The notes under the pieces are model-generated. The model ran no database searches. It saw only the letters and a program-made list of their open reading frames with translations, and had not been told where the DNA came from. DNA of 22,115 nucleotides from a virus. Made by a program: the position numbers and the translations under genes. This document shows, piece by piece, positions 1,100 to 20,500 of this stretch; the stretch's first letter is position 1; each line of letters opens with the position of its first letter. The stretch covers positions 1-22,115 of the IMG/VR virus record IMGVR_UViG_3300043427_004002, one strand, 5' to 3'.

Positions 1100-3073
1100 A
1101 TGGCAATTGGTAGAATATCAGGTGCAATGCTATATGAAAACCAAGAGCGCCAGGGCATTGACCTGCGTTTTGAAGGTGATCTGATATATCTCGATGTCAA
1201 TGACAATCAAATTGATCACGATGGTCGTGTTGGCATCAAAACATCTAGTCCACAGCATGATTTTGATGTCAACGGCGAAGCAAGATTTGGCAACGTAGTA
1301 ATTAGCACAAACACCATAGCGCCAGACTTAACCCACGCTAATTTAGAACTCAATACCAACAGCACGGGTCGTGTGCGTATTTCCAGCGCATACTATCTTC
1401 CCAACACCGACGGCAATGTTGGATATGCCCTAGTAACCGACGGTGCTGGGTCAGTTACATTTGAACCAATTTCTACCACATTATCATTGGCCGGTGACGA
1501 TGGCAATGAAGATATTTCCTTGTTGACCGATTCGTTGTCAATCATTGGCGGAGAATCAATATTAACTACTCTTAACAGCGCAATATTAACCATTGATGCC
1601 AACATAGCAACAACAGTCAGTCGCGGTGTTGCCAGTTTTGAAACCAACAATTTTTCAGTGACAGACGGCGCTGTTTCTGTTCGTGACGATTATGTACAAG
1701 ACGTTGCCGGAGCAATGATCAGCGGTGTTGGTGCCACTCACGAAAACATTTCCGTTAGTTATGATAATATCACACATAAAATCGTATTTGATGTACCAAC
1801 AGCAACCACAACGTCGCTGGGTGTAGCGCAGTTTGATACCAATAACTTTGTGGTCACTGATGGCGTGGTCACGATTAACACCAATATTTCCGAAGATGTT
1901 ACCGGAGCACTGTTGGCCAATGCTACACAATCGGGCATATCTATCAGTTATGATAATAACAACAATTTAGCAACTTTTACAGTAGACACAGCTACATCTT
2001 CTACTAAAGGTATATCTAGTTTTTCAAATACGTATTTTACAGTCACTGATGGTGATGTAGCCATCAATGATGCCAGCAACATTGACAAAGGCATTGCTGT
2101 TTTTGACAGCAACAATTTTACAGTATCATCGGGGTTGGTAACATCAAAAAATATCACCATTGGAACATCAACAGTTGATTTAGGAGCAACACTCTTATCT
2201 ATTTCTGATCTACAGTCTCTAACAGTTGATAATGTAAAAATAGATGGCAATGAAATTTCTAGTCTTGATGCTGACGGAAATATTTCACTGAATCCCAGTG
2301 GCACTGGGGTCATTTTAGTTAATAATTCCCGAATAGTAGGTGTCAGCACACCGGTAGACAATGATGATGCTGTTAACAAAGGCTATGTTGACAACTATTT
2401 TGTCAATTTCAACGATGATCGTATAGTCAGCGGCAATACGTCAATCATTGCTAATAATACCAGTGTAGTGATCACAGTTGACGGTGTTCAAAATAGTTAT
2501 TTTTCAAATATTGGTTTCACTGTTGGGAACTTATCACTGAGTGATAATACCATAACCAGCCTTGACGGAGCAACCATAGATTTTGATATTACTTCAGCGA
2601 TAAATCTTCCTTCTGGCACTATCGCACAACGCCCAGCACAGCCTGTAGCCGGAGATATAAGATACAATGCTGAATTAGCATCGGTAGAATTCTACGATGG
2701 TACAGTCTGGGTTAAAATGTCTAATAACATTGAATCCCAGATTGTTGTACCCGATGGATCGTCAGATTCTTACAGTTTAGATCAATCTGCCACCACAGAT
2801 TCAATACTGGTGTCATTGAATGGTGTGATACAGAGTCCAGCCGCATATTCAGTATCAGGGACTACCATCACTTTTGTTGAGATTCCCCAAGTCACAGACA
2901 TCATTGATGTGAGATTTTTAGCTACCACTGTGGCGACTAGATTGGCCTCACCTACAGCGCCATCATCGTCTACTAGTACCGGTAATTCTGGACAAGTAGC
3001 CTATGATAATACCTACATATATGTGTGTATAGCGCAAAATACTTGGGTAAGAGCCGCGCTTTCAACTTGGTAA
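1100..3073 (+). CDS. Tail fibre protein with internal repeats, 657 aa
   Basis: A 657-residue beta-rich fibre protein. The N-terminal part (FDVNGEARFGNVVIS) resembles phage fibre repeats in which an object is described as 'vnG.a.fg'. Residues about 171-340 hold four degenerate copies of a repeat with core 'S.G(V/I)A.F(D/E)(T/S)NNF.VT.G.V'; the first two copies are followed by 'VSYDN/ISYDN' strands. Later come LNPSGTGVILVNN, the typical fibre linker DDAVNKGYVD (about 425), a DRIV...SII...VTVDG module, the RYN/W module (about 506-541) and the 'LNGVIQSPAAYSVSG' module (about 551-611). The ATG follows a GAGGT ribosome-binding site at 1091-1095 and overlaps no neighbour. It is presumably expressed late with the three genes upstream. 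Which of the phage's fibres it builds (long, short or whisker) cannot be told. Confidence 0.85.
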   Translation: MAIGRISGAMLYENQERQGIDLRFEGDLIYLDVNDNQIDHDGRVGIKTSSPQHDFDVNGEARFGNVVISTNTIAPDLTHANLELNTNSTGRVRISSAYYLPNTDGNVGYALVTDGAGSVTFEPISTTLSLAGDDGNEDISLLTDSLSIIGGESILTTLNSAILTIDANIATTVSRGVASFETNNFSVTDGAVSVRDDYVQDVAGAMISGVGATHENISVSYDNITHKIVFDVPTATTTSLGVAQFDTNNFVVTDGVVTINTNISEDVTGALLANATQSGISISYDNNNNLATFTVDTATSSTKGISSFSNTYFTVTDGDVAINDASNIDKGIAVFDSNNFTVSSGLVTSKNITIGTSTVDLGATLLSISDLQSLTVDNVKIDGNEISSLDADGNISLNPSGTGVILVNNSRIVGVSTPVDNDDAVNKGYVDNYFVNFNDDRIVSGNTSIIANNTSVVITVDGVQNSYFSNIGFTVGNLSLSDNTITSLDGATIDFDITSAINLPSGTIAQRPAQPVAGDIRYNAELASVEFYDGTVWVKMSNNIESQIVVPDGSSDSYSLDQSATTDSILVSLNGVIQSPAAYSVSGTTITFVEIPQVTDIIDVRFLATTVATRLASPTAPSSSTSTGNSGQVAYDNTYIYVCIAQNTWVRAALSTW

Positions 3074-3251: not shown

Positions 3252-6200
3252 ATGCCTAATATTACACGAATTAAAAACAATCAGATCACGGACGCAACCA
3301 TTGAGTATACCAAGATTAAAGCAGGTACACTGGTAGGTTCGGTATTCAACCCTGATCTCACACTGAATTCAAACGTTACCATCGTTGGTAACTTATCTGT
3401 TAGTGGAGACACTAGCACAGTACAAAGCACGAACACATACATCAATGACCCACTGGTCATTTTCAACAACGGCTATACTGGAGCACCCAGTTATGACATT
3501 GGTATTTTAGTCAATCGTAACTTGGCCTCAGTTGCAGGCGTAGGTAACGTAAACGCCGCTTTTATTTGGGACGAATCCGAAGACAAATTTGCAGCAGTAC
3601 TGACTACAGAAACAGGTGGCACAGCTGGTGCTATCAATATCACAGCCTACGCAGACGCAGAATTTGCTGACGTTGAAGCGGTAGATGGCACGTTTAGTGG
3701 CAACATTAGCGCAACTAATGTCACAGGCGATCTAACTGGTAACGTAACTGGTAACGTAACTGGTAACGTAACTGGTAACGTCACAGGCGATCTAACTGGT
3801 AACGTAACTGGTAACGTCACAGGCGATCTAACTGGTAACGTAACTGGTAATGTCACAGGTAACGTCACAGGCGATCTAACTGGTAACGTAACTGGTAACT
3901 TGACAGGTAACGTAACTGGTGATGTCACAGGTAACTTGACAGGTAACGTAACTGGTAATGTCACAGGTAACGTAACTGGTAACTTGACAGGCGATGTCAC
4001 AGGTAATATTTCTGGTACAACTGGCTCTTTCACAGGCAACGTATCAGCAGACAACTTCAACGGTGATGTCGTAGGTGATGTCACAGGTAACTTGACAGGT
4101 AACGTAACTGGTAACTTGACAGGCGATGTCACAGGTAATATTTCTGGTACAACTGGCGCATTCACAGGCAACGTTAGTGCTGACAACTTCAATGGTGATG
4201 TTGTTGGTAATGTAACTGGTAATGTCACAGGTAACTTGACAGGCGATGTCACAGGTAATATTTCTGGTACAACTGGCGCATTCACAGGCAATGTTAGTGC
4301 TGACAACTTCAATGGTGATGTTGTTGGTAATGTCACAGGTAACTTGACAGGCGATGTAACTGGTAATGTCACAGGCAATGTCACAGGTAACGTAACTGGT
4401 GATTTGACAGGCAATGTCACAGGTAACCTAACAGGCGATGTCACAGGTAATATTTCTGGTACAACTGGCTCTTTCACAGGCAACGTTAGTGCTGACAACT
4501 TCAATGGTGATGTTGTTGGTAATGTAACGGCAACTTCGGTGTCAACCGGAACCTTGTCGGTGACAACTTCTACCAACTTCAATGGCGTATTAGTAGCCAA
4601 TATTGCCACTCCGGTGAGCAACACCGACGCAGCCACAAAAGCCTATGTTGACGCACAAATTTCAAGTGGTGGCGATCGTATCGTTGAGTATGATTCATCG
4701 ATTATCATCAGTGACACCAACGGTGCTTCCCAATCCAATATTATTGTTTCTGTTGACGGAACCACTTCGCTGACATTTACAAACTCGGCTATTACAACAT
4801 CTTCAACATCAAATGTTGCTATAAACAGTACTACCGCAGCTTCAAGTTCAACAACTGGTGCATTGACAGTCGCAGGCGGTGCTGGCATTGGTGGTAGTTT
4901 ATATGTTGGTGGCGGTGCTGTCATTGGCGGAAACCTAACCGTACAAGGTACACTGACATCGGTGTCATCAACCACAGTTGAGATCGCAGACCTTAACGTG
5001 ACAGTGGCCAAAGGCGCAGCTGATGCTGCAGCAGCCAATGGTGCTGGTCTAACAGTTGATGGCGCCAACGCAACAATCACATACAACAGCGGTTCAGATA
5101 CTTGGAACTTTAACAAAAACCTAATAGCCGCAGAATTTACTGGTAACGTAACAGGTAATGTCACAGGTAATGTCACAGGTGACATTTCAGGTACAACTGG
5201 CTCGTTTACAGGCAACGTATCGGCAGATAACTTCAATGGCGACCTAGTAGGTAACGTCACAGGTAACGTCACAGGTAACGTAACTGGTAACGTAACTGGT
5301 GATCTAACTGGTAATATTTCTGGTACAACTGGCTCGTTTACAGGCAACGTATCGGCTGATAACTTCAATGGCGACCTAGTAGGTAACGTCACAGGTAACG
5401 TCACAGGTAACGTAACTGGTAACGTAACTGGTGATCTAACTGGTAACATTGCAGGCGTACAAACTATAACAGCAGCCGCTGGTGAAGATCTTACTATCAC
5501 AGGCTCATCTGGCAAAAGCATAAACATCAATGGTGATTCACTAACGGTAAGTCCAGCCGCAACCTTTAACGGAGGCATTACCGGTAACGTAACTGGTAAC
5601 GTAACTGGTAACGTAACTGGTGATTTGACAGGCAATGTCACAGGTAACCTAACAGGCGATGTCACAGGTAATATTTCTGGTACAACTGGCTCTTTCACAG
5701 GTAACGTATCAGCAGATAACTTCAATGGCAACCTAGTAGGTAACGTCACAGGCAATGTCACAGGCGATCTAACTGGTAACTTGACAGGCAATGTCACAGG
5801 TAATGTCACAGGTGACTTGACAGGTAATGTAACTGGTAACTTGACAGGCAATGTCACAGGTAATGTCACAGGTGACTTGACAGGTAACGTAACTGGTAAC
5901 TTGACAGGCAATGTCACAGGCAATGTCACAGGCAATGTCACAGGTGACTTGACAGGTAACGTAACTGGTAATGTCACAGGTAATGTCACAGGTAACTTGA
6001 CTGGTGATGTAACTGGTAATGTTACATCAACTGGAAACAGTTCGTTCTCAAATATCTCTGTAACCGGCGGAGCAATTAACGGTGCAACAATTGGTGCAAC
6101 AACAGCATCATCAGGTGCGTTTACTACCATTGATTCTTCGGGTGCCGCAACACTTGACAGCTTATCGGTGACCACAGACGCTGGTATCACAGGCAATCTA

Positions 6201-7217
6201 GCTGTTACTGGTACAGTAACTGGTGCCAACGCAGACTTTGATACTACCAATGTAGATAGTCTAGTAGTCAACGATGAGCAGACAGCCGGACAAAATATTC
6301 AACATTATGGTACAACCGTAGCAGGACTATTCCGCTCAGTGGCCAACTCAACCTACGATCAAGTGATCATTGGTGGCGATGGTACCAGCGGTGATTTGCT
6401 CACAGGTGCTAGACTCAATATCATTGGCACTGATTCCATGCGTATTCCATCTGGTACAACTGGTGAACGTCCAGCCACTGCCGCACAAGGTATGTTCCGC
6501 TACAACTCTTCAACAGGAACAGCAGAACTGTACACCGGATCTGCATGGCGTAACATTGGTGGCGACTTCACAGTTATCACAGCAGAATCGTTCAACGGTG
6601 ATGGAACAACCACAGTATTCACTTTAGGTGCGGCATCAACCACTGCTGGAACAGTGGTAGCAATCAACGGTGTGGTACAGATCCCAACCACTGCTTACTC
6701 GGTGGCAAGCACATCGCTGACATTTACTGAAGCACCACAAGCCGGCGACGTGATTGATGTACGCCGTTTGTTGACAACATCCACGATTTCGGGTGTAGCC
6801 AGCGCAAACGGATACATGCAGATTGAGCCCACAGACTCAGCGATCAATATCTACACAGGCACATCTTCGGGTGCGGTAACAACTAAAATTGATACCAGCG
6901 GCGCATTTGTGACTTCGCGAGCCAGCACCGCATGTACTACTTCAGCCACCAACGTTGATACGTTTGCCAAAGCAACTTATCGTTCGGCCAAGTATCTAGT
7001 ACAAGCATCCACTGCTGGTGGCGATTACGAGATCAGTGAAGTGTTGGTCATACACGATGGTACGACAGCCACAATGGTTGAGTACGGCATCGTAGCAACA
7101 AACGCATCATTGGGTACTGTAACCGCTGACATCAGTGGCAGTGATGTACGTCTGCGCTACGCAGCCGCATCAGGAACAGTAAACGTAGTAATCAAGAAAG
7201 ATTACATCGTAGTTTGA
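3252..7217 (+). CDS. Giant modular tail fibre protein with Gly-Asn-Val-Thr tandem repeats, 1321 aa
   Basis: A 1321-residue fibre protein. Residues 1-150 form an N-terminal region with a fibre module (INDPLVIFNN...YDIGILVNRN...WDESEDKF). Three blocks of the four-residue repeat (G/D)(N/D)(V/L)TG follow, at about 156-427, 630-734 and 776-926. They are punctuated by seven copies of a longer cassette (ISGTTG(S/A)FTGNVSADNFNG). Between the blocks lie an AATKAYVD linker, a VNGV-type strand region and another copy of the fibre module. The C-terminus carries the RYN/W module (about 1068-1103), the INGVVQIPTTAY module (about 1113-1173) and a terminal module (about 1220-1321) that is also present twice in the 375-aa gene. 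AGGAG at 3238-3242 supports the start. The repeats probably form a long fibrous shaft, with host contact toward the C-terminus; that is inference from fibre architecture in general. Confidence 0.9.
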   Translation: MPNITRIKNNQITDATIEYTKIKAGTLVGSVFNPDLTLNSNVTIVGNLSVSGDTSTVQSTNTYINDPLVIFNNGYTGAPSYDIGILVNRNLASVAGVGNVNAAFIWDESEDKFAAVLTTETGGTAGAINITAYADAEFADVEAVDGTFSGNISATNVTGDLTGNVTGNVTGNVTGNVTGDLTGNVTGNVTGDLTGNVTGNVTGNVTGDLTGNVTGNLTGNVTGDVTGNLTGNVTGNVTGNVTGNLTGDVTGNISGTTGSFTGNVSADNFNGDVVGDVTGNLTGNVTGNLTGDVTGNISGTTGAFTGNVSADNFNGDVVGNVTGNVTGNLTGDVTGNISGTTGAFTGNVSADNFNGDVVGNVTGNLTGDVTGNVTGNVTGNVTGDLTGNVTGNLTGDVTGNISGTTGSFTGNVSADNFNGDVVGNVTATSVSTGTLSVTTSTNFNGVLVANIATPVSNTDAATKAYVDAQISSGGDRIVEYDSSIIISDTNGASQSNIIVSVDGTTSLTFTNSAITTSSTSNVAINSTTAASSSTTGALTVAGGAGIGGSLYVGGGAVIGGNLTVQGTLTSVSSTTVEIADLNVTVAKGAADAAAANGAGLTVDGANATITYNSGSDTWNFNKNLIAAEFTGNVTGNVTGNVTGDISGTTGSFTGNVSADNFNGDLVGNVTGNVTGNVTGNVTGDLTGNISGTTGSFTGNVSADNFNGDLVGNVTGNVTGNVTGNVTGDLTGNIAGVQTITAAAGEDLTITGSSGKSININGDSLTVSPAATFNGGITGNVTGNVTGNVTGDLTGNVTGNLTGDVTGNISGTTGSFTGNVSADNFNGNLVGNVTGNVTGDLTGNLTGNVTGNVTGDLTGNVTGNLTGNVTGNVTGDLTGNVTGNLTGNVTGNVTGNVTGDLTGNVTGNVTGNVTGNLTGDVTGNVTSTGNSSFSNISVTGGAINGATIGATTASSGAFTTIDSSGAATLDSLSVTTDAGITGNLAVTGTVTGANADFDTTNVDSLVVNDEQTAGQNIQHYGTTVAGLFRSVANSTYDQVIIGGDGTSGDLLTGARLNIIGTDSMRIPSGTTGERPATAAQGMFRYNSSTGTAELYTGSAWRNIGGDFTVITAESFNGDGTTTVFTLGAASTTAGTVVAINGVVQIPTTAYSVASTSLTFTEAPQAGDVIDVRRLLTTSTISGVASANGYMQIEPTDSAINIYTGTSSGAVTTKIDTSGAFVTSRASTACTTSATNVDTFAKATYRSAKYLVQASTAGGDYEISEVLVIHDGTTATMVEYGIVATNASLGTVTADISGSDVRLRYAAASGTVNVVIKKDYIVV
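3718..4530 (+). repeat. 12-bp tandem repeat block A in the fibre gene
   Basis: Consecutive 12-base units encoding Gly-Asn/Asp-Val/Leu-Thr, such as GGTAACGTAACT, GGTAATGTCACA and GGCGATCTAACT. The block is interrupted by four copies of a longer cassette encoding ISGTTG(S/A)FTGNVSADNFNG, which begin at about 4008, 4140, 4260 and 4452. The unit length is a multiple of three, so gain or loss of units keeps the frame. Confidence 0.95.
5139..5452 (+). repeat. 12-bp tandem repeat block B in the fibre gene
   Basis: The same 12-base unit family as block A, with two longer cassettes beginning at about 5184 and 5316. The two halves of this block are nearly identical over more than 100 bases, which suggests a recent segmental duplication within the gene. 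Confidence 0.93.
5578..6029 (+). repeat. 12-bp tandem repeat block C in the fibre gene
   Basis: The third run of Gly-Asn-Val/Leu-Thr units, with one longer cassette at about 5673. From about 5755 it becomes a higher-order repeat of four to five units (GNVTGDLTGNVTGNLT), about 60 bases long and repeated several times. Confidence 0.93.
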
Positions 7218-7287: not shown

Positions 7288-8664
7288 ATGGCCGCAGGAT
7301 TTTTCGTAGTTAAAAATGGTCTACAAGTAGGCCCATTACAGATCAACGCCGCAACCGGCGCGATCAGTTCAACATCAGGTAATCTGACATTATCGGGTAA
7401 CGTAGCAGTATCAAAGATCAACAAAAACGACTCGTCAATCGAGATCAATGATACTGGTACTGGTTCCAATGTTGATGTTAAAATTGATGGTACAACTGCT
7501 GTTATTTTTACTGCCAACGCTATGTTGCCAGTCACAGACATTACCTATGACCTAGGTAGCTCTACCAAACAATGGAAAGACGTCTACGTTGGTCCTGGAT
7601 CTCTGTATGTTAACGGACAGAAAGTATTACAAGAAGATTCGGGTAACATCGTGGTTTCGGCCGACGCCAACCAGAATCTAGTGTTCCAAACTTCAGGTTC
7701 GGGAGACATTGAGCTAGATCCAACAGGTTCAGGTGTGGTACAAGTCAAAGGTACGCTGACCATCGAAGAAGGTACCAACATCAATACCAGCAGTGGTAAT
7801 GCTGTGCCATTTTCCACAGGCATTAAATCAGACACGATCACCAGCAAGACCACCAACACAGATCTCACACTCACGGCCAATGGCACAGGTGTGGTACGTG
7901 TCGATGACGACATGACAGTCACAGGTAACTTGACTATATCAGGCACGACAACCACAGTCAATACCACAACACTCAGTGTTGCTGACAACATCATCGACCT
8001 CAACAGTGATGTTACCACAGGTGCACCTAGCCAGAATGCTGGTTTGCGTGTGCTACGCGGTGATGATCCTGCAGTGCAGATCCGTTGGAACGAAACTTCA
8101 GACAAGTGGGAACTTACCACAGATGGCACCAATTACTCAGTGATTGGCGATGCTTCGGCTCTGCCTGGCAATACCACTATCGGTGGTAACTTGACACCAA
8201 CAACCGACAATACGCTCAATTTAGGCTCAAGTTCGTTCAAGTTTAATACTGTGTATGCTACCACATTCAATGGTCAAGCAACAACAGCACAGTACGCTGA
8301 CTTGGCAGAGAACTATCAAGCAGACAAGGCCTACGAGCCCGGTACAGTGGTTGAGTTTGGTGGTGCTGAAGAAGTTACTATAGCTGCTCCAGGTTCAGCA
8401 CGTATCGCTGGCGTGGTATCTAGTGCTCCAGGTTTCTTGATGAACTCCGGACTCCGCGGCGCCAACGTAGTGGCAGTGGCGTTTACAGGTCGTGTTCCTT
8501 GTAAGGTCACTGGCGCAGTACGCAAAGGCGACATGCTGGTAGCTTCTGGCAACGGACATGCTACAGTGACACGCACACCACAGATTGGCCAAGTGATTGG
8601 TAAAGCCCTGGCCAACTTTGATGGTCAAAGTGGCGTGATTGAAGTGGCAGTTGGCCGCTATTAA
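7288..8664 (+). CDS. Tail fibre protein with conserved C-terminal domain, 458 aa
   Basis: A 458-residue fibre protein. The N-terminus (MAAGFFVVKNGLQVG) is followed by beta-rich modules: YDLGSSTKQWKDVYV, LDPTGSGVVQVKG, and the module ADNIIDLNSDV...NAGLRVLRG...IRWNETSDKWEL, a relative of which is in the 1321-aa protein. A repeated strand LNLGSSSFKFNTVYATTF comes next. From about residue 335 to the end is a compact domain (YADLAENYQADKAYEPGTVV, then IAGVVSSAP, then GRVPCKVTGAVRKGDMLVAS, ending VIEVAVGRY). This pattern is seen at the C-termini of many phage fibres and resembles peptidase-G2-like autoprocessing domains; that resemblance is inference. AAGGGAG at 7271-7277 is the ribosome-binding site, and an intrinsic terminator follows the gene. 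It is probably a receptor-facing or collar fibre. Confidence 0.88.
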   Translation: MAAGFFVVKNGLQVGPLQINAATGAISSTSGNLTLSGNVAVSKINKNDSSIEINDTGTGSNVDVKIDGTTAVIFTANAMLPVTDITYDLGSSTKQWKDVYVGPGSLYVNGQKVLQEDSGNIVVSADANQNLVFQTSGSGDIELDPTGSGVVQVKGTLTIEEGTNINTSSGNAVPFSTGIKSDTITSKTTNTDLTLTANGTGVVRVDDDMTVTGNLTISGTTTTVNTTTLSVADNIIDLNSDVTTGAPSQNAGLRVLRGDDPAVQIRWNETSDKWELTTDGTNYSVIGDASALPGNTTIGGNLTPTTDNTLNLGSSSFKFNTVYATTFNGQATTAQYADLAENYQADKAYEPGTVVEFGGAEEVTIAAPGSARIAGVVSSAPGFLMNSGLRGANVVAVAFTGRVPCKVTGAVRKGDMLVASGNGHATVTRTPQIGQVIGKALANFDGQSGVIEVAVGRY

Positions 8665-8771: not shown

Positions 8772-9899
8772 ATGGGATTAACTAGACCGCGTTTAACGCA
8801 ACTACAAGATTCGGATTTTAAAAATAGTTGTCGTGCGGCCGCGGTCAACAACATCACACTCTCAGGCGGCGCTCCTGCCACAGTTGACGGAGTAAATCTA
8901 CAAGTCAACGATCGTGTGTTGGTAGTAGGGCAAACCAATGCTAGTCAAAATGGTATCTATTTTGTTTCCACACTGGGATCAGGCAGTAACGGCACATGGA
9001 CCAGGACATTAGATTCCAATCAAAACGCCGAAGTCACATCTGGCGTGATAGTAAACACCGTTGAAGGAACCGAGTACGCAGGAACACTCTGGAAACTGAC
9101 TACTCAAGATCCTATCACCATTGGTTCAACTGGACTCACATTCGTACCAAATCTTGAAAACAGTAACATTTATGTAGGAAGTAAAGCAGTAACAACATCG
9201 CAGACAGTGATTAACAGCATTGCCTCCAGTGGATCTACTTCAGTGAGATGGACAGTATCAGCAGTAGATAACACAAATGGCCGTTATAAAACTTCAACTG
9301 TTGACGTGTTGTCAGATGGAACCGATGTCTATATATCAGAGTATGCTGTTGTACTAAGTAATTCAAACTATGAAGTGGTTAGTCTCACTGCTGATATCAA
9401 TGACAGCAACATACGATTGTTGGGTACCGGTGATAGTTCCAACGTCAGCGTGTATTTCCAAAGATCATTTTTAGGATCGTCGTCGTCGGTGGGATATGTC
9501 AAAGCTTCGTTGTCAGTGGACGGAATGGCAACATTAACAGATACACAAACTCTGACAAACAAAACACTGACAGCACCTGTTATTAATAAAATTATTGTAT
9601 CTCCATCAACAACATCTGTTAATACAACTGCTACTGTCATTGATACTTTTGTTGCTGCCACTTATCAAGGTGCAAAGTATTTGATAACAATATCTAACGG
9701 CAGTAATTACAACATCATTGAGGCTCTATTGGTACACGACGGTACAACTGCCACAGTCACAGTCTATGGCGAAACATCAACTAACGCATCATTGGGAGAT
9801 ATAACCGCAGATATCAGCAGTGGAAATGTGCGTCTTTTATATACAGGAGTGTCCGCAGGTAACGGTGTAAAACTAGCCGCAACGTACATTTCTGCTTGA
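8772..9899 (+). CDS. Tail fibre protein with duplicated C-terminal module, 375 aa
   Basis: A 375-residue protein. Residues about 27-128 match a widespread phage fibre domain: LSGGAPATVDGVNLQVNDRV, then QNGIYFVS, W.R.LD, and LWKLTTQDPITIGSTGLTF. Residues about 140-240 and 277-375 are two copies of a module with the pattern 'Y......E.L..HDGTTA...YG...TNASLG..TADIS..(D/N)VRL.Y'. The same module ends the 1321-aa fibre protein. The copies are separated by the common linker TLTNKTLTAPVIN. The gene has its own late promoter and follows a terminator, so it is a separate transcription unit. Role: structural, most likely a fibre or fibre-tip component; the family is known from T4-like and other tailed phages. 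Confidence 0.85.
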   Translation: MGLTRPRLTQLQDSDFKNSCRAAAVNNITLSGGAPATVDGVNLQVNDRVLVVGQTNASQNGIYFVSTLGSGSNGTWTRTLDSNQNAEVTSGVIVNTVEGTEYAGTLWKLTTQDPITIGSTGLTFVPNLENSNIYVGSKAVTTSQTVINSIASSGSTSVRWTVSAVDNTNGRYKTSTVDVLSDGTDVYISEYAVVLSNSNYEVVSLTADINDSNIRLLGTGDSSNVSVYFQRSFLGSSSSVGYVKASLSVDGMATLTDTQTLTNKTLTAPVINKIIVSPSTTSVNTTATVIDTFVAATYQGAKYLITISNGSNYNIIEALLVHDGTTATVTVYGETSTNASLGDITADISSGNVRLLYTGVSAGNGVKLAATYISA

Positions 9900-9941: not shown

Positions 9942-10619
9942 ATGTACAAAATTGAACAAAAATACCGCTCTTCATATACCGGTGAAGATGTCACAACACG
10001 CATGACACTACAAGGTCAAGTGCAACAGTACGAAAAAGAGTGGGTACCAAACAATGTTTTTAACAATCATATTACTACACAGGCCATAGTGCTCGGCGGA
10101 GGCTGGTTACGCGAGCAGTTTGACATGAGCTTGATCAAGAATCACAAAGGTGGCCTATTAGGAAGTTCAAAATTACAGACTTATGGCTGTAATGATGTCT
10201 ACAAAGATATTGAATGTGATTTTTTAGTGACTATTGGTCGCGAAAACGCCGCTGAAATCGCCAGCAATGGATACTGCGATAATCATATTGTTTATTCCAA
10301 TGCAGGCCAGGTTCTTGATTATCCTGGCAAGTTTTACTTGATCCCGCAAGATCCTTCATGGAATGCAGGAGCGATTGCCGCTTACTTAGCAGCCTTCGAT
10401 GGGCACGACAAGATCTTTTTGTTGGGCTGTGAAATGGACGACAACCATCCATTCTGGGCCAAGGCCATGCGTATAGTTTTTGATACCTACCCTGATGTTG
10501 ATTTTGTATTGGTACAAGGCTTCAGCGCCGACGGCTATGTTCCCAATGAATGGAAAGATGTTTTGAATTTTAGAACTATTTCAACTAGAGAATTTGTTGT
10601 TGAAGCCGATCTAGGATAA
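9942..10619 (+). CDS. Rossmann-like protein, possibly DUF115/sialyltransferase-like, 225 aa
   Basis: A 225-residue protein that is not a fibre by composition. Near residue 48 is AIVLGGGWLREQFD, a strand with a glycine-rich turn. It is followed by YGCNDVY, CDFLVTIGRE, and later YLIPQDPSWNAGAIAAYLAA and KIFLLGCEMD. The order 'LG.G.SR...D', 'YGCN.LY', 'D.LV..D', 'SGA.A...A......I.LLG.D' is the pattern I associate with the MptE/DUF115 (flagellin-modifying Maf) and sialyltransferase-like Rossmann group. Here the first motif reads GGGW rather than G.G.SR, so activity is uncertain. GGAG at 9928-9931 is the ribosome-binding site. The C-terminus overlaps the end of the convergent Nudix gene by nine bases. 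Its position next to fibre genes suggests a role in fibre or surface glycan modification; this is inference. Confidence 0.7.
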   Translation: MYKIEQKYRSSYTGEDVTTRMTLQGQVQQYEKEWVPNNVFNNHITTQAIVLGGGWLREQFDMSLIKNHKGGLLGSSKLQTYGCNDVYKDIECDFLVTIGRENAAEIASNGYCDNHIVYSNAGQVLDYPGKFYLIPQDPSWNAGAIAAYLAAFDGHDKIFLLGCEMDDNHPFWAKAMRIVFDTYPDVDFVLVQGFSADGYVPNEWKDVLNFRTISTREFVVEADLG

Positions 10620-11039
10620 TATAGATTCCATCGTTTCTAATTTACGTATCACAGAGTCAAATTTGAAACTACGCCACACCCCCGGATGTAAAGGCCGGGG
10701 GTGATCTTTTATTGCCACCCAACAAAAACCTCTGTGCTCGTCGTTCAGTTTAGGAACAAATTCGTTGTCAATTGAGATTAAAAATGTGTGGAAAAAAAAT
10801 TGTTGATTGTTGCTGGTAAATTTTTCTATTGGTACGATTTTACGATATTGTATCTCACCAATTTCCTCACGTATTTCTCGATGTAGGCCATCAATCACCG
10901 ATTCTCCAGGTTCAATCTTGCCACCAACTAGGCCCCAAGATCCTGGGTCTCGATCGTGATTCCTTAGTAAGAATAGATATCTTTTAGTTGAAACAGAGTA
11001 GATCAAAGCACCGCAACTTTCTATAGCACGACGCTCCAT
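10611..11039 (-). CDS. Nudix hydrolase, 142 aa
   Basis: The protein has a complete Nudix box, G(x5)E(x7)REIREEIG, at about residues 40-62 (GKIEPGE...REIREEIG). The preceding WGLVGG and the N-terminal strand CGALIYSVSTKRYLFLLRN are typical of the fold. Nudix enzymes cleave nucleoside diphosphates linked to another group; likely substrates (oxidised dNTPs, ADP-ribose derivatives, capped RNA) cannot be decided from sequence. I choose the ATG at 11039, because AGGAGG lies just upstream (complement of 11044-11049) and MERRAIESCGALIY is a natural N-terminus; an in-frame ATG at 11078 is less likely. The start lies inside the 3' end of the gp15-like gene (19-base overlap), which suggests translational coupling in a minus-strand operon. 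The 3' end overlaps the 225-aa gene. Confidence 0.88.
   Translation of the reverse strand: MERRAIESCGALIYSVSTKRYLFLLRNHDRDPGSWGLVGGKIEPGESVIDGLHREIREEIGEIQYRKIVPIEKFTSNNQQFFFHTFLISIDNEFVPKLNDEHRGFCWVAIKDHPRPLHPGVWRSFKFDSVIRKLETMESILS
10677..10709 (+). terminator. Intrinsic terminator inside the opposing Nudix gene
   Basis: CACCCCCGG (10677-10685) and CCGGGGGTG (10695-10703) form a perfect nine-pair GC-rich stem with a nine-base loop, followed by ATCTTTT. It lies 58 bases after the stop of the plus-strand 225-aa gene, so it can end that transcript. On the minus strand the same bases encode HPRPLHPGV of the Nudix protein. Confidence 0.7.
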
Positions 11040-12391
11040 TCCCCCTCCTGATAAAGACCTTCGACGCTCTTTGACCATGATCCTTCAAACCATTTATACT
11101 GTGTTCCAGTATTTAAGTTGGTCACATACTCTGTGGAAGTTTCTTGCTGACTATCAAAAGCCACACTCCATCCTGAATTGCCATATTCGATTATGTCATT
11201 GGCATTGGCAATAAACTCAGGATCTCCCCATACTATCGCGGCTTCAGCGTTGGCAGAATTTCCAATCGGATTCAAAATAAGATATCTAGTACCAATATCT
11301 GGGGACAGCAAATCAAACTGATCCACATTTACAGTAAACGGATCAATGATAGCATCAACAGGATCTAAAGAGTTAGTTGGGACAGTATCAGCATCAATGT
11401 TGAATATCAATTGACTGTCAACCAGTGGGTTGTAGCTGACATGACCAACAACCTCGTAGTCGTTGCTATGGTGTTTCAAGCGTATCTCACTGAGACCGTC
11501 ACGCAATTCACCATAATGATCGATGAGATCTTTCCAATTGGCAGTTGCTTCGGGAGCCATGTCATTGATTGAAATTTCAGATCTTTTTAACAAAGTGATT
11601 TTATCGTCAACGAACAAAACACGATACCCATAAGGCGAGATAACTCGCCTTCCGAGATATGTCTCATCGTCAAATAAGTTATTTGATAAGTTTCCGTCTG
11701 TGTCATAAATTGAGCCCAAGATCTTGTAAACAACTCCAAGCCTTTGAACTTTTGCTGGCGCAGAAATCCAAATTGGCAGTTCAAATGTCATAGTAGCCAC
11801 ACTGATGGGTTCCTCACCACCGGCAGGTATCGATCTTGAATCCCAATTGGTGCCGGTTAAAAATACCGCGCTAAGGCTGGTCCAGTCGATGTAGTTATCG
11901 GTGCTTTGTATTTCCAATGCTGGATTAAACAGAGTGGCGATCTGTTCGATGATTTGTAATTTTTGTTCGGTGTTTGATGTCCAGATATCAACCTTTAAGG
12001 TCAATTTATAAGGCACAGGCATAAGACGCTCAACTGTAAACGAATCGCTTTTTTCTGTGTCATAATTGCCAGTATCGGGATCGTATCTTTGTTGTCTTAA
12101 TTGTATTTTGCTGACATGGAACGGTTCTTGTACACGCTCTCTGTCATAGTCAAATGCTGAAACATAAACAGCCATGGCTGGCACGTTTGATAGACTGTTT
12201 TCGGTATTACCTCTAAGTATTTGAGCGGCTTGACGACTCTGATCTCCGTAGATAACCGGCACACGCTGTAAACTGATATTACCGTTGCGATCCTTGCCAA
12301 ACTGTACATGAAAATTTGAAACCAGCCTGATAAACTGAGTTATAAAACGTCTTATCTGGCCATCGTAGAAAAAATTAGGATCTTGTGGCAT
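11021..12391 (-). CDS. 15: gp15-like tail terminator / sheath-stabilising protein with C-terminal extension, 456 aa
   Basis: Residues 1 to about 215 align by eye with T4 gp15. The N-terminus FFYDGQIRRFITQFIRLVSN corresponds to the T4 start, FGYFYNSSFRRYATLMGDLF. RVPVIYGDQSR (about 43-53) corresponds to IRVPITYASKE. VPYKLTLKVDIWT...IIEQIATLFNP (about 126-157) corresponds to MIYELSIFTR...IVEQILPYFQP. MTFELPIWISAP (about 201-212) corresponds to LTFEVNGWMYPP. In T4, gp15 forms a hexamer that caps the tail tube and sheath and joins the tail to the head. T4 gp15 has 272 residues; this protein has about 240 extra residues at the C-terminus that I do not recognise. The start ATG shares its A with the TGA of the upstream gp14-like gene, so the two are coupled. 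The T4 order 14-15 is kept, but on the minus strand. Confidence 0.87.
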   Translation of the reverse strand: MPQDPNFFYDGQIRRFITQFIRLVSNFHVQFGKDRNGNISLQRVPVIYGDQSRQAAQILRGNTENSLSNVPAMAVYVSAFDYDRERVQEPFHVSKIQLRQQRYDPDTGNYDTEKSDSFTVERLMPVPYKLTLKVDIWTSNTEQKLQIIEQIATLFNPALEIQSTDNYIDWTSLSAVFLTGTNWDSRSIPAGGEEPISVATMTFELPIWISAPAKVQRLGVVYKILGSIYDTDGNLSNNLFDDETYLGRRVISPYGYRVLFVDDKITLLKRSEISINDMAPEATANWKDLIDHYGELRDGLSEIRLKHHSNDYEVVGHVSYNPLVDSQLIFNIDADTVPTNSLDPVDAIIDPFTVNVDQFDLLSPDIGTRYLILNPIGNSANAEAAIVWGDPEFIANANDIIEYGNSGWSVAFDSQQETSTEYVTNLNTGTQYKWFEGSWSKSVEGLYQEGEWSVVL

Positions 12392-16067: not shown

Positions 16068-16463
16068 ATGCGAGCCTACGAATTCTTAAATGAAAACAAA
16101 AAAAGTCTAGTTCGCAGTAACCTAAAACCTCATCGCGATCAAGAAATGGCGATACAAGCCGTGCATCGTGTTGCGGGCACCGCCGACAGACACTATGATC
16201 TCAATCGAATCATGATGTATGCGGCCGGGACCGACGGAGACTGCGATGTTCCAATGACCAACCAAAGTTGGGCTGGGCGTAATAACATCGCAGTTCCATA
16301 TACAAAACTCGAGTCGGACATGCTAAAAAAAGCTTACACCGCAATGGATGTAGAATGGGACGACGCACTCAAACCAAATAAATCGGAAAAAAGCATCGAA
16401 CCTAAAAATAACAATGTGCGTAGCCCAGTACCTGTGATAAAGAAAAATCGCTATGGCGTTTGA
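16068..16463 (+). CDS. Conserved hypothetical phage protein, 131 aa
   Basis: A 131-residue protein starting MRAYEFLNENKKSLVRSNLK. The central part HYDLNRIMMYAAGTDGDCDV...PYTKLESDMLKKAYTAM recalls a small hypothetical protein seen in several T4-like environmental phages, with pattern 'Y.(M/L)NR(L/I)MMA.A.(A/T)DG......PYT..E..M...A'. Those proteins also end in 'SP(V)....K.(R)YG', like the SPVPVIKKNRYGV here. Function is unknown. I chose the ATG at 16068. An in-frame GTG at 16029 would add 13 residues; neither start has a clear ribosome-binding site. It follows gp13 in the same direction and is probably co-transcribed. Its stop codon TGA lies inside the -35 box of the next gene's promoter. Confidence 0.7.
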   Translation: MRAYEFLNENKKSLVRSNLKPHRDQEMAIQAVHRVAGTADRHYDLNRIMMYAAGTDGDCDVPMTNQSWAGRNNIAVPYTKLESDMLKKAYTAMDVEWDDALKPNKSEKSIEPKNNNVRSPVPVIKKNRYGV

Positions 16464-16488
16464 CATCAACAAAAAATCATAATATAAT
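16460..16488 (+). promoter_or_regulatory. Perfect-consensus sigma70 promoter before the dNMP kinase
   Basis: TTGACA (16460-16465), a 17-base spacer and TATAAT (16483-16488) match the bacterial sigma70 consensus at all twelve positions with ideal spacing. The -35 box overlaps the end of the upstream gene. The start point would be about 16495, 19 bases before the ATG, with GGAG at 16501-16504 as the ribosome-binding site. Confidence 0.93.
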
Positions 16489-16513
16489 CGTCCTAATAGT
16501 GGAGACGACGAGT

Positions 16514-17155
16514 ATGATCATTGGTATATGTGGTTTTATCGGCAGCGGCAAAGACACAGCCGCTGACTATCTAGTAAACTTCCATGGTTTTCGCAGAGAA
16601 AGTTTTGCCAGCACTCTTAAAGATGCGGTCAGTTCTGTATTTGGCTGGGATCGAGATTTACTTGAAGGACGCACCAAGCAAGCACGAGAATGGCGAGAGC
16701 AGGTAGATCCCTGGTGGGCAGAACGACTAGAAATGCCTACTTTGACTCCGCGTTGGGTTCTACAGTACTGGGGAACGGAAGTCTGTCGCGCCGGATTCCA
16801 TGACGATATTTGGATCGCTAGCCTAGAAAACAAATTGCGAAATAGCCAGGATGATGTGGTTATTTCTGACTGTCGTTTCCCCAATGAGATACAGGCCATT
16901 AAAAAAACCGGTGGTGCAGTTTCGTGGATACAGCGGGGCGATCTTCCTGAATGGTATCAGTGTGCTCTCACAGAAAATACTACACCCGAATTTGAACAAT
17001 ATATCTTAGAAGATCATGAAGAGTTAATGGTACAAAAATATCCCGGAGTACATGCTTCGGAATGGTCTTGGATCGGTACCAATTTTGATCACGTTATCGA
17101 TAATAATGGCAGTATCGAGGATCTCTATGGCCGGCTCAAAACCCTTGTACGCTAG
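16514..17155 (+). CDS. 1: Deoxynucleoside monophosphate kinase (T4 gp1-like), 213 aa
   Basis: The N-terminus MIIGICGFIGSGKDTAADYL carries a P-loop of the dNMP kinase type (G..GSGKDT, about residues 7-15). The middle contains WVLQYWGTEVCRAGFHDDIW (about 81-100), like T4 gp1 RRLMQALGTDL...YWVKL. VVISDCRFPNE (about 115-125) is the conserved VISD.RFPNE motif, followed by AIKKTGGAV. Near the C-terminus HASEWSW and NNGSIEDLYGRL match 'H.SE...' and 'NDGS.E.L...'. The enzyme phosphorylates deoxynucleoside monophosphates to feed phage DNA synthesis; T4 gp1 has 241 residues. An in-frame start at 16460 lies upstream of the promoter -10 box, so I chose 16514. Early expression is expected from its sigma70 promoter. 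The 3' end overlaps the convergent HNH-like gene by 20 bases. Confidence 0.9.
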   Translation: MIIGICGFIGSGKDTAADYLVNFHGFRRESFASTLKDAVSSVFGWDRDLLEGRTKQAREWREQVDPWWAERLEMPTLTPRWVLQYWGTEVCRAGFHDDIWIASLENKLRNSQDDVVISDCRFPNEIQAIKKTGGAVSWIQRGDLPEWYQCALTENTTPEFEQYILEDHEELMVQKYPGVHASEWSWIGTNFDHVIDNNGSIEDLYGRLKTLVR

Positions 17156-17486
17156 GCGACATGGCCCACCCCGACTGATTTAAAAACAAGTCAATTTGAC
17201 AGTTGGCACAAACTGTTTTTAGATTATTCCAGTCCACATTCTGTAAATCGCCGTCAACATGGAAAACAAACATCTGTCGATCTGATTTGGATTTAAATCC
17301 GCAACGGTCGCACTTGCTTTTTTTCCTATAACCTTGTTTAAACCATAAAGGCGCACGGGGTTTTAATCGACGGCTTTTCCTGATACAACTATCACAACGG
17401 CTTCGATAGTAGACCCTATCTCCATGGTGGCAGTTGACAGCCACCGGCTTTTCGCCGCATACCGGACACAATTTTCTCTTTGTCAT
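17136..17486 (-). CDS. HNH-like zinc-finger protein, 116 aa
   Basis: A small Cys-rich, basic protein. CPVC (7-10) with CDSC (31-34) forms one likely zinc site, and CDRC (59-62) with CANC (93-96) a second. Between the latter pair, FHVDGDLQNVDWNNLKTVCANC follows the HNH pattern 'HH.DG...N....NL..LC..CH'. The first His of the usual pair is Phe (75), the central His is kept (76), and the last His is Gln (97), so nuclease activity is doubtful. Related small proteins are annotated as HNH endonucleases in T4-like phages. The ATG at 17486 gives MTKRKLCPVCG, which I take as the natural start. A GTG at 17522 with AAGGA upstream would add 12 residues. It runs against the kinase gene and sits directly before the sheath gene, as free-standing homing-type genes often do. 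Confidence 0.75.
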   Translation of the reverse strand: MTKRKLCPVCGEKPVAVNCHHGDRVYYRSRCDSCIRKSRRLKPRAPLWFKQGYRKKSKCDRCGFKSKSDRQMFVFHVDGDLQNVDWNNLKTVCANCQIDLFLNQSGWAMSPSVQGF

Positions 17487-17514
17487 ACGTATATTTAAGA
17501 CAGATACCTTAATT

Positions 17515-17539
17515 AAGGGCACTATAGGTGTCCTTTTTT
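17515..17539 (+). terminator. Intrinsic terminator between the kinase/HNH region and the sheath gene
   Basis: AAGGGCAC (17515-17522) pairs with GTGTCCTT (17528-17535) through a five-base loop, with one G-T pair. A run of six T's (17534-17539) follows. It would stop readthrough from the early kinase promoter into the late sheath gene. Confidence 0.7.
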
Positions 17540-17587: not shown

Positions 17588-20500
17588 ATGGCACTGATTT
17601 CCCCAGGTTTACAACTCTCAGTCACAGACGAGAGCCAATACGTACCCGGCGCAGTTGGAACTACACCTCTGTTGGTTCTCGCTACCGCACAAGATAAAAC
17701 AGCCAATGGTAGTTATGCCGCTGGCACATCAAAAGCCAATGCTGGTAAACTACAGGTTTTCACTAGCCAGAGAGAATTGGTTGCCCAACTTGGCTATCCT
17801 ATTTTCAAACAAAGCGCATCAGGCACACCCATACACGGCAGCCCACTAAACGAATATGGTTTAATGACCGCTTATTCGGCACTGGCAGGCGCAAACAGAC
17901 TTTATGCTATACGTGCCGACATTGACCTTGATCAACTTGAAGCTACTTCCATACGTCCCATCGGCGAACCTGAAGACAGCACCTATTGGATCGATCTCGC
18001 AGAAGCGACCTGGGGAATTTTTGAATGGGATTTTGATTCAAAAACTTTTACAGAAAAAACTCCTGTTCTTATCACCGACGAAGACGACACCGAAGGTGGG
18101 TCTACATTGAAACCCTTGGCTTCAATCGGAAACATCGGAGATTATGCTGTAACCGCCATCATAAAAAACGATCTGTTTGATGGACGTGTTTTCAAGAAAG
18201 ATTCTGGCAATGTTTGGCGTCGAGTTGGTAGTGATGAATGGCGTTATCGTGCTGTACCAGCAGTAATTGGCACAGAGTTAAATCCAACAGTCACAATTGG
18301 AGATGAGATTACCATCAACGGCACAACGGTCACTTTTACTGGAACAACTTTAACTCAGGTAGTAGCCGATATCAACAACACATTTGTTGAATACAATGCC
18401 GACGACACAGTACCACAAGGTATCCGTGCTAGAAACAACAACGGCTATCTCGAGTTATATGTTACATATACCACCTCTGGCAATGATCCCCGTGACGGAA
18501 AGATGATTATTTCTAATTCTGTAGGGACACCATTGGCTGATTTAGGAATCACTGCGGCCACCTACGATGCTCCAACAGTACATTACGGCTCATATGTTGA
18601 TGTACCAAATTGGGGTGCTTCCGCATCTAAGCGTCCTTCCGGCAGCGTTTACATCAAGACTTCTGCCACTGGCGGCGGCATGAACGTTCCTGTTAAAAAA
18701 TTCAACGCTGATTCAGGATCCTGGACGTCCCAGGCTGCCCCAGTATACCGCACAGAAGAAGAAGCCATTTATGCTTTTGATCCAGTGGCCGGTGGATTTG
18801 GCACAGCGGCTGGAACACTATTCTTCCGTACTAGATCCGATTACGCATTAGATTTTTCTGACACTGAGATGATCTATCGTCTTTATGTCAAACAGAGATC
18901 TGGAATTTCGGCACAAACTCAAACACCTACAGGTATAACAGGCGGAACCATAGAATTCTTGGTCAGCCAGTCAGGTTCTTCAACTCTTACATCACACACA
19001 GTCACTATCGCCAATGGATCATCAATTAGTGATTACGCTACTAAGTTTGTGACTGCTATAGCAGCTGCCAACATTCCGGAAGTACGAGCAGTTATACGCA
19101 CCAATGGGGATATACAAATACAACAAACCGCTGGCGGATTGATTAAGATGCGCAATCTCAGCGGAACACCGTTGACCAGTGCTGGCTTTACTTTCTCTAA
19201 CACACGTGACAACGGCACATACATGTTTGTGAGTAACTATGTGAATATCACTGATACCACTCCGGTGTTTAGCGGATACCCACTATTCGCTGATTTTACA
19301 GCACCTTATAAAGCACCTGAAGATGGCACACTTTGGTATTTTGGTGACCCCACACAAGTTGACATCATGATCAATGATGGCACAGCCTGGAAAGGCTATC
19401 GTAACGTGACCACTGATGCTCGTGGTTACAATCTCGCATTAACTGACTCTCTGGGACCAATCATCACTCCAACCAAACCCAAGACAAACAACTCTGGGGG
19501 TGCGCTGGCAGCTGGAGATATCTGGTTAGATACTTCCGACCTTGAAAACTATCCTAAATTGTATCGTTATAACACCAGCGGACAATGGGTATCTATCGAC
19601 AACACCGATCGTACCAGCCAAAATGGTATTGTTTTCGCAGATGCTCGTTGGGATGGTTACAGCGATGACACAGGTGGAACAGCCGATGTGATTGCGGATG
19701 ATTTACCTGATGTGGTCGAAATGTTGGAAAGCGACTATGTAGATCTTGACGCGCCTAATCCAAGACTTTACCCACGTGGTACCTTGTTATTTAATACACG
19801 TCGTTCAGGATTTAACGTCAAGAAATACATTGGCGATTATTTCAATGAAGACAGCTTCCCCGAAGCCGACAGTCTTCCTGATGTAGCGTCAGCTTGGGTT
19901 GGTGTCAGTGGTCTCAAAGACTCTGGCGCACCTTATATGGGCACACAAGCACAACGCAATATGGTGGTCAAGGCCATGCGTAGCGCATTAGATGGCAATA
20001 CTCAGGTACGCGAAGAGCAGTTCTTCTTTAACTTGATTGTTACACCAGGTTACCCAGAACTGATCACCAATATGGTGGCTCTCAATAATGATCGTAAGAA
20101 CACAGCATTTGTCATTGGTGACACACCACTGACACTACCTGCTAACAGCATACGTATCGCTAACTGGGCTAATAATACCAATGGTGACGGATTGTCCACA
20201 GCAGATCCATATTTGGGTGTGTTTTATCCAAGCGGCTTAACCAATGACGTTGATGGAAATACCATCGTTGTGCCTGCTAGCCATATGATGCTAAGAACTT
20301 TCATACGCAACGATAACATTTCATATCAGTGGTTTGCACCCGCCGGCACACGACGCGGTTTGATTGATAATGCTACCGACATTGGCTACGTTGACTCAAG
20401 CACAGGCTCATTTGTGCGCAATGGTATCAATCAAGGAATGCGTGATGCCTTGTACGAAAATCGTGTCAACCCATTGACCATCCTTCCAGGTGTTGGATTA

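Follow-up and report, generated by a model that had tools for sequence, protein, structure and literature searches.

In the viral DNA analysed here (a 22,115-bp record of a marine bacteriophage, hereafter the window), a 12-bp unit encoding the tetrapeptide Gly-[Asn/Asp]-[Val/Leu]-Thr forms three in-frame arrays in a single gene, and we consider it likely that these tetrapeptide bricks build a trimeric fibre shaft whose unit number is fixed within a species and is remodelled in steps of 12 bp between species. Among the assembled sequences compared, array length was constant within species and differed mostly by whole units between them, and the synonymous spellings of the window units were linked far beyond chance. 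The gene has the following features:

3252-7217 (+): putative repeat-bearing tail-fibre gene, 1321 aa (open reading frame list; PHROG tail-fibre families and phrog_430 matched by the array and the C-terminal part)
3252-3710 (+): N-terminal non-repeat domain, residues 1-153, strongly conserved in aligned relatives
3718-4530 (+): block A, a 12-bp/tetrapeptide array with four cassettes (TRF, unit and cassette counts)
4008-4064 (+): cassette 1, ISGTTGSFTGNVSADNFNG (cassette count)
4140-4196 (+): cassette 2, ISGTTGAFTGNVSADNFNG (cassette count)
4260-4316 (+): cassette 3, ISGTTGAFTGNVSADNFNG, one base apart from cassette 2 (cassette count, sequence comparison)
4452-4508 (+): cassette 4, ISGTTGSFTGNVSADNFNG (cassette count)
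4531-5135 (+): middle non-repeat domain separating blocks A and B, conserved in aligned relatives
5136-5447 (+): block B, an array with two cassettes (5184, 5316) and a 132-bp repeat with 91% matches (TRF, cassette count)
5448-5579 (+): spacer IAGVQTITAAAGEDLTITGSSGKSININGDSLTVSPAATFNGGIT, missing from the relative L005 (window-L005 alignment)
5580-6029 (+): block C, an array that has a single cassette (5673) and, at 5738-6019, a 60-bp superperiod (TRF, cassette count)
5667-5710 (+): probable copy tract of contig L002 (variant 5693, 5696 and 5702; 44-bp exact match to 5310-5353)
5770-5827 (+): probable copy tract of the window (variants 5780-5783; 58-bp exact match to 5830-5887)
6030-7217 (+): C-terminal non-repeat region (PHROG tail-fibre matches; similarity to ORF 1100-3073)
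6972-7214 (+): C-terminal domain, residues 1241-1321, predicted to adopt the T4 gp9 C-terminal fold (AlphaFold2, VIA-align)

Strict G[N/D][V/L]T units occurred 88 times in the 1321-aa protein, against approximately 0.5-1.1 expected from its composition. They accounted for 26.6% of the protein, or 36.7% when the cassettes were included, and the repeat share of about 40% given in the initial annotation was slightly too high. Its seven longer cassettes and its third period of about 60 bases in block C were both recovered: ISGTTG(S/A)FTGNVSADNFNG was found exactly seven times (starts at 4008, 4140, 4260, 4452, 5184, 5316 and 5673), and TRF returned a 60-bp period at 5738-6019 (4.7 copies, 84% matches), which is the block C superperiod, together with 12-bp periods at 3733-3983, 4326-4451, 5250-5447 and 5583-6019. 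Two antisense open reading frames lie opposite the arrays, at 3647-4636 (-, 329 aa) and 4643-6271 (-, 542 aa; LPVTLPVTSPVK...); they exist because the repeat spelling is free of stops on the antisense strand, and should not be taken to indicate genes.

Judged from its sequence and position, the product of 3252-7217 is probably a tail-fibre protein. Genes for sheath, tube, neck and sheath-stabiliser proteins lie nearby, placing it in a tail/neck structural cluster, and the protein matched the annotated tail-fibre families phrog_30742 and phrog_2710 as well as the S-SM2 tail fibre; such a place and such similarity are the features by which a tail fibre is recognised. NCBIfam and Pfam scans of the whole 1321-aa protein returned no family above cut-off and no lysozyme domain, and two sub-threshold Pfam matches were best explained by low complexity. 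The fibre-like ORF 8772-9899 ends with the same C-terminal domain (49% identity), ORF 7288-8664 holds an 85-aa module related to the fibre N-terminal domain (35% identity), and ORF 1100-3073 shares a module with the fibre C-terminal region (39% identity over 127 aa); given the modules that the latter two have in common with the repeat fibre, the fibre cluster appears to be a product of module shuffling. Large phages, PA5oct and Atu_ph07 among them, had the tail sheaths closest to that of the window (approximately 40-47% identity), and the source is an uncultured T4-like myophage, probably related to jumbo phages. A useful reference for this virus group is L213 (G001), a 207-kb contig whose sheath shared 65% identity with that of the window and whose fibre gene (1333 aa) carries wholly different cassettes (TSSGTSSFNDITASGTITG). 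Elsewhere, the window encodes a NUDIX hydrolase (10611-11078, -), a deoxynucleotide monophosphate kinase (16460-17155, +) and a cysteine-rich 128-aa protein without a Pfam match (17136-17522, -), and a promoter scan found nothing above chance.

The initial annotation had proposed that the array is a fibre-length tuner, in which slippage or unequal recombination would change the unit number frequently and give phage populations of mixed fibre lengths, and had itself named a single fixed repeat number as evidence against this. Although a 12-bp unit preserves the frame and length differences between species were multiples of 12 bp, a single fixed number is what the assembled data contained within species. 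The window and three contigs from other metagenomes (L002, L003 and L004) were 99.9% identical over 15.6-16.5 kb without gaps, and the fibre gene measured 3966 bp in all four. L005 and L006 had the same array length as each other, and a gene with 79 units (L267) was present in four contigs, always at 4797 bp (1599 aa). For the cultured phage S-RIM2, 60 of the 60 matches listed (63 in total at 99% identity or more; one listed record is the RefSeq copy of another) aligned in one piece over a 1240-bp stretch that spans both arrays, and the labels of these isolates range from 1999 to 2012 (approximately 13 years). An all-against-all comparison yielded no length differences among pairs whose identity outside the arrays was 97% or more, a pair count that takes in several loci of the same contig and in which not all pairs are independent. 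An apparent difference among the L267 contigs in this comparison stemmed from alignments to internal duplicated modules and was rejected because all four genes are 4797 bp long. Phase-variable loci are marked by a repeat number that varies within a species and by neighbouring units that are most alike, the signature of slippage; in the assembled sequences the number was constant, and synonymous similarity between adjacent window units was not raised (lag-1 z 0.9). At the scale of assembled consensus sequences, the array therefore behaves as a structural rod that is remodelled slowly, rather than as a fast length switch, and a length tuner, which found no support where it could be tested, is very improbable.

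This constancy could be trusted less if the assemblers had collapsed or expanded the repeats. The contigs do come from short-read metagenomes, and the fibre gene does contain exact repeats of 90-99 bp. However, none reaches 100 bp, the length is identical in four assemblies from different samples, and arrays of the same kind are present in cultured isolates. Because no 100-bp exact repeat exists and three contigs from other metagenomes are of equal length, an assembly artefact, which the initial annotation had listed among the outcomes that would undo its reading, is scarcely credible.

Between species, in contrast, array length changed by whole units. At 80-96% identity, 20 of the 26 non-zero length differences were multiples of 12 bp (p 4e-8). 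The pair L131/L132, with a difference of -108, was an artefact of alignment to internal duplicated modules and was dropped because the two contigs are identical; without it, the count was 19 of 25 (p 1.3e-7). The earlier expectation that length changes in whole 12-bp units thus holds between species and fails within them. S-RIM2 and S-BM1 differed by approximately 84 residues in the array region, and the window and L005, which are 94.7% identical in the conserved protein domains, required many block gaps for alignment of their arrays. A brick number that is fixed within species and remodelled between them points to the protein brick as the first target of selection, with fibre length as a probable further one.

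The units are written in a few fixed synonymous spellings with preferred codon pairings, as the initial annotation had noted. Val-Thr pairs were spelled GTCACA in 35 of 62 units and GTAACT in 24 of 62, and Leu units combined TTG with ACA in 15 of 16 cases and CTA with ACT in 7 of 10. Linkage between the V/L and T codons of the array amounted to 0.77 bits, compared with 0.09 bits when permuted within amino-acid classes (none of 2000 permutations gave a higher value), whereas Val-Thr pairs outside the array, in the rest of the window, had many different spellings. Window units 3, 5, 10 or 11 positions apart showed raised synonymous similarity (z 2.3, 2.3, 3.7 and 3.1, respectively), and adjacent units (lag 1) did not; over 97 other arrays, the mean lag-1 z was -0.18. 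The peaks at 3, 5 and 10-11 units indicate that DNA blocks of approximately 36, 60 and 120-132 bp were copied, and the window units therefore arose in the past by the copying of multi-unit blocks; single-unit slippage is unsupported because lag-1 similarity was not raised. Block lengths differ in relatives (lags 3 and 6 in L008, lag 7 in L007). Of the earlier proposal that units spread by DNA copying, the copying itself was borne out by the spelling linkage, the lags and the population variants described below, but the slippage of single units was not. Codon selection against repeats, under which neighbours would be more different than chance, had no effect in 102 arrays (mean z -0.15). The mean difference was 7.0 among the window cassettes and 9.4 among those of L005, compared with 9.6 for window cassettes against L005 cassettes, and full concerted evolution is not claimed because cassettes do not sort cleanly by species. 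Across approximately 100 non-redundant arrays, including blocks A-C, Leu units shun adjacency (V/L identity lag-1 z -5.6 and -6.9) and recur at 3-4 units.

Variants among near-identical contigs were concentrated in the array. Seven of the 13 differences between the window and L002 over 15.6 kb fell within 91 bp of block C, a clustering that none of 200,000 uniform simulations reproduced. In L002, the allele at 5693-5702 had a 44-bp exact match to block B (5310-5353), which the other three alleles lacked; the window allele at 5780-5783 had a 58-bp match to the stretch that lies one 60-bp period downstream (5830-5887), and the longest match at this site in the other three contigs was 34 bp. Both clusters look like probable unit-over-unit copying within the same gene that left its length unchanged, although the tracts could be assembler errors. 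In the tail sheath gene, three SNPs within 10 bp (18556-18565) distinguish near-identical contigs (L082), and SNP clusters thus also arise without repeats; this one points to between-strain recombination that did not involve a repeat.

The two length-neutral copy tracts also bear on a more far-reaching reading, that the shaft is fixed in length and fluid in sequence, with intra-gene copying continually overwriting units and cassettes while selection holds the total length. Long-form proteins are of similar length despite differing cassettes (window 1321, L005 1342 and L213 1333 aa), and in the sister clade L007/L008 (855 and 931 aa) both array regions are shortened together. Because these five species lie on one tree, the similar lengths are a hint only, and we regard this reading as rather unlikely. 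If true, the fibre would be a ruler, in which length and not sequence is the selected trait.

The GNVT-type array occurs widely among aquatic phages, including the cultured Synechococcus phages S-RIM2 and S-BM1, in which it lies in a structural protein. Arrays of at least five consecutive units were present in at least 120 viral-contig stretches, and a seven-unit pattern was found in only 12 stretches among 84,980 bacterial and archaeal genomes. A full-text search of openly available papers listed none with the motif GNVTG, which is weak evidence of absence. Four bacterial proteins of approximately 800-1040 aa (L424, L425, L426 and L430; Altererythrobacter, Alphaproteobacteria and Novosphingobium) also carry long GNVT arrays, and their common C-terminus, without a Pfam match, resembles a trimeric autotransporter anchor. 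In arrays other than those of the window, Asn (57%) and Asp (37%) shared the second position and Val (72%) and Leu (24%) the third, and Thr stood at the fourth in 95%. The spelling of arrays of at least 15 units ranged from nearly all-different (L296, 51 spellings in 59 units) to strongly homogenised, and the window was among the more homogenised (0.243; median outside its family, 0.08). Since other phages keep the tetrapeptide with scrambled DNA spelling, protein-level selection is the common factor, and the earlier view that the arrays reflect DNA copying rather than selection on protein alone is unsupported, because most other phages retain the tetrapeptide and randomise its spelling. It follows that protein selection alone can maintain such an array. 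As the whole explanation for the window, however, with the brick kept for structure only and the shared spellings due to codon or codon-pair bias, it is improbable: the codon linkage, the agreement of the lag peaks with the TRF periods, the many spellings of Val-Thr pairs elsewhere in the window and the single base that separates cassettes 2 and 3 all argue against it.

With regard to the fold, the octad consensus of T4 gp5 has G at position a, N/D at b, V at g and a polar residue at h (PMC3004832). The brick fits these octapeptide positions (88 strict units), and when the array was compared with PDB sequences in the GNVT register, approximately 12 gp5-type spike chains were returned (E 3e-4 to 0.1), whereas the control registers GVNT and GTNV returned none, the latter giving only one VgrG at E 0.3. 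These matches and that to the gp5-like PHROG_430 survived the register control, but the gp5 matches are weak (best E approximately 3e-4) and low-complexity decoys (unrelated G-x-x-x repeats) scored better, and homology is therefore not claimed. Array runs with even and odd unit numbers were equally common (95 versus 94), and no consistent lag-2 excess, as an eight-residue period would give, was detected in the arrays. Because decoys score better and octad parity is absent, the likeness to gp5 is a resemblance and not membership.

AlphaFold2, applied to single chains with four sequences per alignment, produced two models of low overall confidence (mean pLDDT 44-45), in which each tetrapeptide of the array monomer contributes one short strand and a turn to a single-chain beta-solenoid; pLDDT was 55-69 in block C and 72-85 in part of block A. 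Structural matches of these monomer models were generic solenoids only (the best including 3p4g and 8vbb), and gp5 was absent among the matches listed. A single-chain solenoid with four-residue sides, like those of antifreeze proteins and autotransporters, is thus a rival to a gp5-type triple helix, on fold only and not on evolution; the lack of octad parity fits it as well. However, AlphaFold2 tends to build solenoids from pure repeats, and such predictions are unreliable; phage fibres are normally homotrimers; and the gp5 matches depend on register. We therefore treat the single-chain solenoid as quite possible without being probable, and infer that the array is most likely a trimeric beta-helical shaft resembling the T4 gp5 needle repeat. 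Better supported than this array fold is the prediction for the C-terminal domain (residues 1241-1321, pLDDT approximately 67-82), which aligned over 80 residues with residues 195-283 of 1qex (VIA-align Z 9.9, rmsd 2.2) and matched, at Z 7.0, one chain of a baseplate entry from Klebsiella phage KP1; it is predicted to fold like the C-terminal domain of T4 gp9.

Under the reading that we favour, a brick-built trimeric shaft fixed within species, the arrays would form a rigid rod extending from the conserved N-terminal domain to the gp9-like C-terminal domain, a homotrimeric beta-helix or beta-solenoid whose tetrapeptide brick would be, in likeness, a halved T4 gp5 octapeptide. Recombination between 12-bp units would add, remove or overwrite whole bricks, leaving frame and periodicity intact because a brick is 12 bp, and copying would proceed in blocks of the approximately 36, 60 and 120-132 bp given above. 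Outcomes that persist within a species would keep the length, and species divergence would shift it by whole bricks. The arrays thus put the evolution of repeat-built virus fibres to a natural test, with bricks frozen within species, changed as wholes between species and persistent even where the DNA spelling is fully scrambled. Were the structure of a single array fragment solved, it would account for the shafts of an entire class of fibres in marine phages.

Repeat-built fibre shafts are of a known kind, and the four-residue brick is the variant here. In the C-terminal triple-stranded beta-helix of T4 gp5, the repeat is the octapeptide VxGxxxxx (PMC3004832, PMC4576200); two window tetrapeptides fill one such octapeptide, a match that hinges on where Val stands with respect to Gly. 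Unlike gp5, the window protein has a period of four residues, no octad parity and no lysozyme domain, and its array is much longer, is broken by cassettes and domains and is not in a hub gene. T4 gp9, the long tail fibre connector, has a predicted fold in common with the C-terminal 80 residues of the window fibre; gp9 itself carries no array, whereas in the window fibre the gp9-like domain would cap a long repeat shaft. The structural ('YadA domain') proteins of the Synechococcus myophages S-RIM2 and S-BM1 contain the same tetrapeptide arrays as the window (8 + 16 units in S-RIM2 and 9 in S-BM1), constant within S-RIM2 and remodelled between the two phages; the protein outside the array differs, and the spelling is less homogenised than in the window. 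The collagen-like repeats in the antireceptors of Streptococcus thermophilus phages (PMC5601072) likewise lie in frame between the domains of a receptor-binding protein, but these repeats are Gly-X-Y, unrelated to the window array in sequence and fold. Bacterial contingency loci, which vary in phase by slippage (PMC6321876), share with the window tandem repeats in a surface-protein gene; unlike them, arrays of the window type have a constant copy number within species, and that of the window originated from multi-unit blocks rather than from single-unit slippage.
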